NCBI RefSeq assembly: GCF_900163695.1
Contig: NZ_FUIC01000007.1
Coordinates: 124,001-188,000, forward strand
DNA length: 64,000 nt
Direction: 5' to 3'
Source of the DNA: Gulosibacter sp. 10
Lineage (GTDB): Bacteria > Actinomycetota > Actinomycetes > Actinomycetales > Microbacteriaceae
Part shown: piece by piece, positions 41,115 through 42,635 of the stretch
How the letters are laid out: every line of letters begins with the position of its first letter
Numbering within the stretch: the stretch's first letter is position 1
Translations under genes and position numbers: made by a program
Notes under the pieces: generated by a model
What the model saw: the letters and a program-made list of their open reading frames with translations, nothing else
What the model was told of the DNA's origin: nothing
Databases searched by the model: none

Positions 41115-41483
41115 TCACCGCCGCGGAGGCGCGTCGTCCGGCGCCGCCTCCGAGCCCTTCGGTCGCTCCGCGGGCACCAGTTTGAGCCCGACGATCGCCG
41201 CGATGATGCCGGCGAGGAAGACGAGCTTCCACGCCGAGAACGGCTCGGCGCCGGTGAGCAGCGCGTAGGTCACGGTGAGCGCCGCGCCGAGTCCGGTCCA
41301 CACGGCATAGGCGGTGCCGATCGGAATCGATTTCGCGGCCCAGCCGAGCCCCGCCATGCTGATCGTCACGGCGACGAGGAAGACCACGACCGGACCGGGG
41401 CGGGTGAACCCGTCGGACATGCCGAGCGCGGTCGCCCAGACCGCCTCGAATACGGCGCTGGCGAGCAGGACGATCCACGCCAT
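41115..41483 (-). CDS. gdx: SMR/Gdx-type guanidinium exporter subunit B
   Basis: A 122-residue four-helix small multidrug-resistance protein. WIVLLASAVFEAVWATALGMSDGFTRPGP contains the central Glu of SMR transporters with the W-A-T-A-L Gdx/SugE context. GTAYAVWTGLGAALTVTYALL is the third-helix signature. The last 20 residues form a charged cytoplasmic tail. The gene starts 1 nt after the stop of its partner, so the two subunits are translationally linked, as in heterodimeric SMR pairs. The upstream guanidine-III riboswitch favours guanidinium export over multidrug export. Confidence 0.85.
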   Translation of the reverse strand: MAWIVLLASAVFEAVWATALGMSDGFTRPGPVVVFLVAVTISMAGLGWAAKSIPIGTAYAVWTGLGAALTVTYALLTGAEPFSAWKLVFLAGIIAAIVGLKLVPAERPKGSEAAPDDAPPRR

Positions 41484-41484
41484 G

Positions 41485-41799
41485 TCAGCTCACCGCCTTC
41501 AGGCCCACGACGGAGCCGATGAGCAGGACAAGCAGCGCGACCCTGGCGATCGACACGCGCTCGGCCTTCGTCACCATCGCCCAGAGCACCGTGAGCGTCG
41601 CCCCGATGCCCACCCACACCGCGTACGCGGTGCCGGTCGGCAGCTCGCGCATCGCCCAGGCGAGGCCGACGGTGCTGACGGTCATCGTGACGAAGAACAG
41701 CACCGTGGGCCAGAGCTTGCGAAAACCGTCGGAGGCGCTGAGCGCGGTCGCCCAGACCGCCTCGAGCATCCCGCTCAGAATGAGCACGAACCAAGACAT
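41485..41799 (-). CDS. gdx: SMR/Gdx-type guanidinium exporter subunit A
   Basis: A 104-residue four-helix membrane protein. The first helix has SWFVLILSGMLEAVWATALSASDGF, with the essential Glu13, and the third GTAYAVWVGIGATLTVLWAMV, both close to the Gdx (formerly SugE) consensus. As the first gene of the pair it starts at ATG 41799, just after an AAGGGA ribosome site that abuts the riboswitch 3' end. This suggests the riboswitch controls translation initiation. Guanidinium/H+ antiport is inferred from family plus riboswitch. Confidence 0.9.
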   Translation of the reverse strand: MSWFVLILSGMLEAVWATALSASDGFRKLWPTVLFFVTMTVSTVGLAWAMRELPTGTAYAVWVGIGATLTVLWAMVTKAERVSIARVALLVLLIGSVVGLKAVS

Positions 41800-41813
41800 G
41801 ACCGGATCCCTTC

Positions 41814-41855
41814 GAGTCAGTCTTGTCGTGTGCGGGTACTGCTCCCTCGTCCGCA
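41814..41855 (-). promoter_or_regulatory. Guanidine-III (ykkC-III) riboswitch
   Basis: Reading the minus strand, the three conserved blocks ACGAGG, GTACCCG and GACAAGAC occur in order and spacing. P1: TGCGG (41855-41851) pairs with CCGCA (41835-41831). P2: GAGCAGT (41844-41838) pairs with ACTGACTC (41821-41814) with one bulged A. Together they make the H-type pseudoknot of this class. The P2 3' strand ends 1-2 nt before the AAGGGA ribosome site of the Gdx gene. Confidence 0.9.
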
Positions 41856-41915
41856 GGCCCGATCGCCGGACCTCACCACAGCACTATAGCAACGCTCCCG
41901 CGCACCGCGGCCGCG

Positions 41916-42635
<720 letters not shown>

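Follow-up and report, generated by a model that had tools for sequence, protein, structure and literature searches.

A guanidine-III riboswitch in the short leader of a putative heterodimeric Gdx-type exporter operon, with a predicted start-codon-burying OFF state

Introduction

How might an aptamer whose last helix runs up to the ribosome-binding site control the genes behind it, and what would those genes export? The question is raised by a locus in Gulosibacter sp. 10, a member of the Microbacteriaceae, within a 64,000-nucleotide stretch of contig NZ_FUIC01000007.1 (the window). An earlier note on this DNA had read the locus as a guanidine-III riboswitch before a two-subunit Gdx-type exporter. 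This core interpretation is supported by the covariance-model score (46.5 bits against a gathering threshold of 36), by the gene context in relatives and by the opposite charge bias of the two subunits, with guanidine binding and transport being predicted from sequence. The principal features are the following.

41811..41876, reverse strand: guanidine-III riboswitch aptamer, RF01763 (46.5 bits, gathering threshold 36, E 1.7e-6)
41485..41799, reverse strand: SMR subunit A, 104 aa, Gdx-type, Arg/Lys bias -2 (PF00893 77.2 bits; 6wk5 75.2 bits)
41115..41483, reverse strand: SMR subunit B, 122 aa, Gdx-type, Arg/Lys bias +5 (PF00893 75.3 bits; 6wk5 80.3 bits)

The RNA class, its action as an ON switch, Gdx and paired SMRs are already known (PMC5696562, PMC9574504, PMC12186494, PMC7736828). 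The locus as a whole is read here, with considerable confidence, as an operon for a heterodimeric Gdx-type SMR exporter, headed by a short leader that holds a guanidine-III riboswitch whose OFF state would bury the start codon.

The aptamer

The pseudoknot at 41855-41814 on the reverse strand is confirmed as a real guanidine-III (ykkC-III) riboswitch by its covariance-model score. The Rfam search for ykkC-III, which the earlier note had proposed as a check, gives a full-length alignment at 41876-41811 that exceeds the gathering threshold and has zero non-standard pairs marked. It is the window's own match and the only one found in the 3.65-Mb genome; this, together with the E value of 1.7e-6, makes a chance match unlikely. 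The parts of the element are listed below.

41855..41873, reverse strand: 5' hairpin of 7 bp with loop GCGAU, abutting P1 (41873-41867 with 41861-41855; Rfam alignment and fold)
41832..41854, reverse strand: P1, GCGG/CCGC, of the G1-C24 type (41854-41851 with 41835-41832; from the sequence)
41814..41844, reverse strand: P2 pseudoknot helix of seven pairs with A41817 bulged (41838-41844 with 41821-41814; from the sequence and the numbering in PMC5696562)
41807..41813, reverse strand: Shine-Dalgarno (SD) sequence GAAGGGA (from the sequence)

Elements are numbered after the T. fusca crystal structure (PMC5696562). Like that RNA (RF01763; 5NWQ), the window aptamer is an H-type pseudoknot with helices P1 and P2, carries the C6-G7-G17 contacts, lies before an SMR gene and is expected to be an ON switch. 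By homology, the ligand would be contacted by C41849 (C6), G41848 (G7) and G41839 (G17), and a fifth P1 pair is formed by C41836 and G41827. The conserved core blocks ACGA, GUACC and GACAAGAC, both pseudoknot helices and the position directly before the ribosome site can all be seen in the sequence, as had been claimed. The window aptamer differs from its T. fusca counterpart in the outer pair of P1 (G1-C24 instead of C1-G24), in a third strand one base shorter, in P2 pair 16-37, which is A-U, and in the bulged A between P2 positions 38 and 39. Zero bases separate the last P2 base (41814) from the SD at 41813-41807, just as described earlier, and the ATG follows at 41799-41797; in T. fusca the SD is 16 nt away (PMC5696562).

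The same architecture recurs in 162 distinct cores drawn from 247 of 257 loci. P1, taken at a fixed offset, pairs in all 162, and changes on both sides are seen at 1-24, 2-23 and 3-22. The 3' strands of P2 were located by complementarity, so that P1 constitutes the only unbiased test of pairing. All 162 also carry the C6, G7 and G17 contacts, in a search whose pattern itself demanded CGA and GTA. With type P defined by a P1 5' strand of GCGG, G1 faces C in 70 of 71 distinct cores and U in the remaining one, whereas pair 1-24 is C-G in 91 of 91 distinct non-P cores.

Promoter and leader

An extended -10 element is found immediately upstream.

41883..41891, reverse strand: extended -10 element TGCTATAGT, with the -10 hexamer at 41888-41883 (read in the sequence)

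The hexamer begins 12 bases ahead of the aptamer, from which we infer a transcript start near 41876. Such placement is common in the family: TGnTAnnnT falls within -22 to +8 of the Rfam start at 46 of 147 loci against 0.5 in shuffles, and TANNNT lies near the aptamer start at 108 of 147 against 12.7. Because the -10 element sits beside the aptamer and both patterns are enriched there, the leader is probably little more than the aptamer and the ribosome-binding site (RBS). A sigma-70 scan that also required a -35 element gave zero sites at the window locus, and a scan for intrinsic terminators gave nothing there.

In other members of the family the -35 region carries tandem TGNNCAG repeats, 11 nt apart, that look like the operator of some regulator. 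They occur at 40 of 147 loci and in 0 of 30 shuffles, at positions near -38 and -27 relative to the start of the aptamer (as in L040, L051 and L068), and are absent from the window. With a span five bases wider, they are present at 36 of 96 loci with a single SMR gene, 2 of 39 with a pair and 3 of 12 others. Genomes G155 and G224 each have the strict pattern once, at this promoter, and G000, G025 and G033 lack it; another look-alike site, in G102, falls within an ORF. The relaxed pattern TGNNCAGNNNNTGNNCAG has 21 matches in five genomes against 35 for its reversed control. If the repeats are indeed operators, some gdx genes may be under dual control.

A predicted OFF state

The window riboswitch is likely a guanidine ON switch. 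ON switches of this class are described as freeing the SD (PMC12186494, PMC5696562), and PMC5696562 anticipates rival structures in which the RBS is concealed while naming none in the text consulted. A candidate competing structure emerges from the leader fold.

41792..41825, reverse strand: proposed OFF hairpin (41825-41816 and 41814-41813 with 41792-41797 and 41799-41804; prediction)

In the absence of guanidine, the conserved CAAGAC and the 3' strand of P2 (41825-41813) would pair with the surroundings of the start codon (41804-41792), lowering translation of A and, through coupling, of B. Guanidine would then clamp the P1/P2 pseudoknot and its triplex, withdraw the pairing strand and free the start codon, allowing an A/B dimer to export guanidinium. 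The model thus offers a defined OFF structure, open to test, that would use conserved bases of the aptamer itself to cover the start codon.

In the nested leader fold, CAAGACUGAC (41825-41816), which overlaps the 3' strand of P2, pairs together with CG (41814-41813) across 41804-41792. The predicted hairpin is incompatible with P2 and places the start codon in the stem, with pairing probabilities of 0.86 for A and 0.90 for G, and most of the SD in the loop. Six of the seven SD bases are largely unpaired in the OFF model (0.75-0.96, against 0.15 at the first base), and the SD opens less in the ON model (0.24-0.92); only the start codon opens, which counts against the OFF model. The locus had been called a compact switch with 'almost no expression platform': P2 does end at the SD, yet the fold predicts a platform, one in which CAAGACUGAC can pair across the start codon and which does not bury the SD. 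The platform is better described as overlapping, being the 3' part of the aptamer itself, a prediction against which there is also evidence.

At -12.6 kcal/mol, the hairpin is more stable than shuffled counterparts (-7.3 +/- 2.3; z -2.3; 6 of 200 as good). Blocking, defined as the extra cost of opening the SD-to-start region when the aptamer strands are free rather than locked away, amounts to 6.5 kcal/mol in the window against 0.74 +/- 2.5 in spacer shuffles (16 of 1000 as high). When the first codons are replaced by synonymous ones, blocking is 3.3 +/- 4.0, and 262 of 1000 recodings reach the native value; combining both kinds of shuffle gives 1.2 +/- 2.9, with 46 of 1000 reaching it. The effect extends to 203 leaders (224 kept of 247, less duplicates and those loci whose 5' flank was too short), where blocking is 4.8 in type P (n = 100) and 4.7 in type S (n = 103) against 1.6 and 1.7 in shuffles. 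Native blocking exceeds the leader's own shuffle mean in 79 of 100 P and 88 of 103 S leaders; the corresponding p values (1e-11 and 2e-14) are overstated, since relatives are not independent.

Chimeras proved less informative. When P2 strand and RBS are recombined, the native fold lies below the chimera mean in 58% of P (n = 96; p 0.001) and 54% of S leaders (n = 101; p 0.004), and duplex energies for the same chimeras give p 0.11 (P) and 0.016 (S). Full-leader chimeras, 70 of each type, give p 0.16 (P) and 0.04 (S). P2 strands of the opposite type served P leaders equally well (p 0.36), and the window's start site is blocked almost as strongly by other members' aptamers as by its own (97 of 222 as high). 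Because CAAGACUG is shared, such chimeras discriminate poorly, which is why spacer shuffles were used.

The same riboswitch could instead act mainly on mRNA stability, with a bound pseudoknot near the 5' end blocking RNase E scanning and start-codon pairing playing a secondary part. Protection from RNase E has been described for guanidine-III (Richards and Belasco 2021, as cited in PMC12186494), and the window aptamer appears to begin only a few bases from the transcript start placed near 41876. This reading, which leaves the excess of start-site complementarity over shuffles in the 203 leaders unexplained, is the less likely one; the two outputs are not exclusive.

A further proposal, in line with the earlier note and in our view unlikely, dispenses with any alternative structure: the P2 strand lies beside the SD, and the ligand would shift ribosome access locally. 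It draws on the termination of P2 right at the SD, on an SD that stays mostly exposed in the OFF fold, and on two leaders of the same genus in which computed blocking is absent (L081, -1.6; L082, -0.5), set against two others in which it is present (L087, 5.9; L110, 4.7). In addition, PMC5696562 cites in-line probing in which P1 and P2 were already present in the ligand-free RNA, on constructs that may have lacked the RBS; this speaks against an OFF state in which the P2 strand is sequestered. What this proposal does not accommodate is start-site blocking beyond that of spacer shuffles, in the 203 leaders as in the window, or the low energy of the hairpin relative to its shuffles. Burial of the start codon is kept as the preferred OFF model.

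The SMR gene pair

Both proteins pass the PF00893 cut-off of 23.7 bits, and a single base separates the stop of A from the start of B (TGA-C-ATG). The nearest solved structures for both are 6wk5/8vxu, the best EmrE-labelled chains reaching only 42.2 (A) and 28.6 (B) bits. 6wk5 is the structure of Gdx-Clo, which the window proteins resemble in length, in PF00893 and in E13, W16, S42, Y59 and W62, present in A and B by alignment (Gdx-Clo numbering). The central Glu, binding-site Trp and Tyr switch of Gdx are thus found in both subunits. Unlike 6wk5, the window pair has opposite charge bias, Ser/Gly in place of Lys at position 21 and, in B, Ala10 where 6wk5 and A have Gly; Ala occupies this position in 91 of 116 B subunits.

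Paired SMR heterodimers, which make up about 20% of Gdx (PMC9574504), are recognised by neighbouring genes whose Arg/Lys biases are opposite in sign and lie near -4/+4. Computed by the formula quoted there, with column boundaries of our own choosing, the bias of first subunits in riboswitch-linked pairs is -4.0 +/- 1.1 and that of second subunits +4.5 +/- 2.2. The signs are opposite in 115 of 116 pairs, and the lone exception (L200) is cut off. Single SMRs (n = 122, a set that takes in L188, L238 and L243) average 0.08, with exactly 0 in 107 and values beyond +/-2 in 3. Published values are about -4/+4 for paired SMRs and 0 for single ones (PMC9574504), so the bias seen here is the known pattern, and in A and B it fits an arrangement as in antiparallel heterodimers.

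The two genes are a probable guanidine exporter. The riboswitch had been said to identify the cation 'directly', which goes too far, given that aptamers of this class take methyl- and aminoguanidine as well (PMC5696562). A real riboswitch before an SMR pair of broader or other, Qac-like substrate is nevertheless quite improbable. Both proteins fall below the cut-off of 126 bits for the NCBIfam SugE equivalog NF008512 (89.4 and 82.6 bits) and the pair is not filed there, and Ala10 in B departs from the Gly of 6wk5; against this, 6wk5 is the closest solved structure by a wide margin, and it is the genome's other SMR pair, the only SMR genes found elsewhere in it, that has neither W16 nor an RF01763 match. 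This second pair lies at 8678-9362 of contig 7 (genome G000; L150, L151), and a nearby ORF looks MarR-like by eye.

Neighbouring genes were considered as parts of the riboswitch-exporter system and rejected after tblastn over 257 loci, many of which are too short to show such neighbours. The upstream excalibur protein has matches at 0 of 256 other loci, and the downstream flavohaemoprotein has two weak ones of about 30% identity (L218, L248). Within the excalibur-domain protein (42710-41916, reverse strand), a run of GTCGGC repeats at 42174-42250 encodes a Pro-Thr stretch.

RNA form and transporter architecture

RF01763 is found at E <= 0.001 in 146 of 299 sampled Microbacteriaceae genomes (138 over the cut-off), including 5 of 7 from the window's genus. 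One locus with the window's genus code, L110 (genome G161), also falls within L213, from [Zimmermannella] bifida NBRC 103089, now Gulosibacter bifidus (Microbacteriaceae). Among the 147 family loci, 135 have an SMR ORF downstream, 96 of them single (including L024 and L090, with partial ORFs only) and 39 paired. Ten of the 12 others precede small membrane proteins; L145 is probably a false match, and at L120 no SMR ORF was found downstream. A chance match or decayed relic in the window, for which the middling score speaks (46.5 bits against a family-sample best of 63.3), is extremely improbable in view of its E value, conserved ligand contacts and conserved gene context.

The form of the RNA tracks the architecture of the transporter. 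The P1 5' strand is GCGG at all 39 SMR-pair loci (38 by script, L128 by eye) and at 0 of the 108 others, which carry CCGG (103; L106 and L127 by eye), CCCG (4) or CTGG (1). All 39 riboswitch-linked pairs in the sampled Microbacteriaceae thus have the G1-C24 form. The relation also holds in the other direction: an RNA-only pattern, GCGGACGAGGGAGCNGTACCCGC, finds at least 119 stretches, and of the 80 made into loci 77 carry two SMR ORFs, a few of them cut by the locus end. Two of the exceptions (L188, L243) end too early to tell, and the third (L238) has one shortened, fused-looking ORF. The 80 loci come from 18 actinobacterial families (NCBI rank), with 25 in Microbacteriaceae, one labelled as an acidobacterial family, probably through a name clash, and one unranked. 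The G1-C24 form is a sharp RNA marker of two-gene Gdx operons across actinobacteria. A class-wide RF01763 search gave matches in 175 of 394 genomes; the 30 best loci by score, a sample biased by that choice, have CCGG in 29 (in the remaining one, L158, the strand was mis-located), with one SMR in 23, two in 0 and none in 7.

In L238, from Janibacter terrae, the G1-C24 riboswitch precedes a single ORF of 174 aa that looks as if A and B had been fused in frame, with deletions.

A quick tree built from 37 pairs and 40 singles, with few columns and many open forks, places all pair A subunits in one clade (SH-aLRT 95) and 36 of 37 pair B subunits in another (SH-aLRT 93), L259_B being the stray. The SMR pair probably arose once, so the link between G1-C24 and the pair reads as long co-inheritance, and the association of RNA and transporter may rest on a single origin followed by such co-inheritance. 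Both forms occur within one genus code, in g73 (L003 single; L116, L118, L119, L122 paired) and likewise in g71 (L012 against L113 and L135), which suggests replacement of whole cassettes. It is conceivable, if doubtful, that beyond co-inheritance guanidine-III lineages have been matched and tuned to their output, with G1-C24 for heterodimeric Gdx pairs, C1-G24 for single Gdx and an often core-shortened form for the CBU_0592 family, CAAGAC doubling as the strand that buries the start codon. In the open literature on this topic, searched by subject and not by the name of the form, no paper on G1-C24 was found; so far as that literature goes, an outer P1 pair that tracks transporter architecture is new within a known class.

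Small membrane proteins and other outputs

The ten riboswitches that precede a small membrane protein (82-101 aa in nine cases) are L052, L067, L078, L104, L115, L127, L129, L130, L141 and L142. Three of the proteins were tested and match NCBIfam CBU_0592. With a profile built on nine of the proteins, 15 genes across the 299 genomes score high, ahead of a gap from 99.6 to 40.7 bits; this adds L330, L332, L335, L336 and L337. The aptamers at these 15 comprise ten RF01763 matches, four sub-threshold ones (26.4-29.5 bits) and L332, core-like by eye. Searches for PDB relatives of the set up to E 10, and of the literature by family name, found nothing.

By eye, the AAG of the core is missing from 10 of the 15 CBU_0592-linked aptamers. 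Since the same deletion occurs before SMR genes (L140, L146), a changed ligand is just one possibility, the other being that the CBU_0592-type protein is a new guanidine-related transporter. The family sample ties the guanidine-III class to a small membrane protein family of unassigned role.

Among the seven SMR-less loci of the class-wide sample, six (L152, L156, L158, L160, L161, L168) have guanidine-III aptamers before ORFs that by eye resemble ureohydrolases and are possible guanidinases, and the ORF at the seventh, L170, begins like the CBU_0592 proteins.
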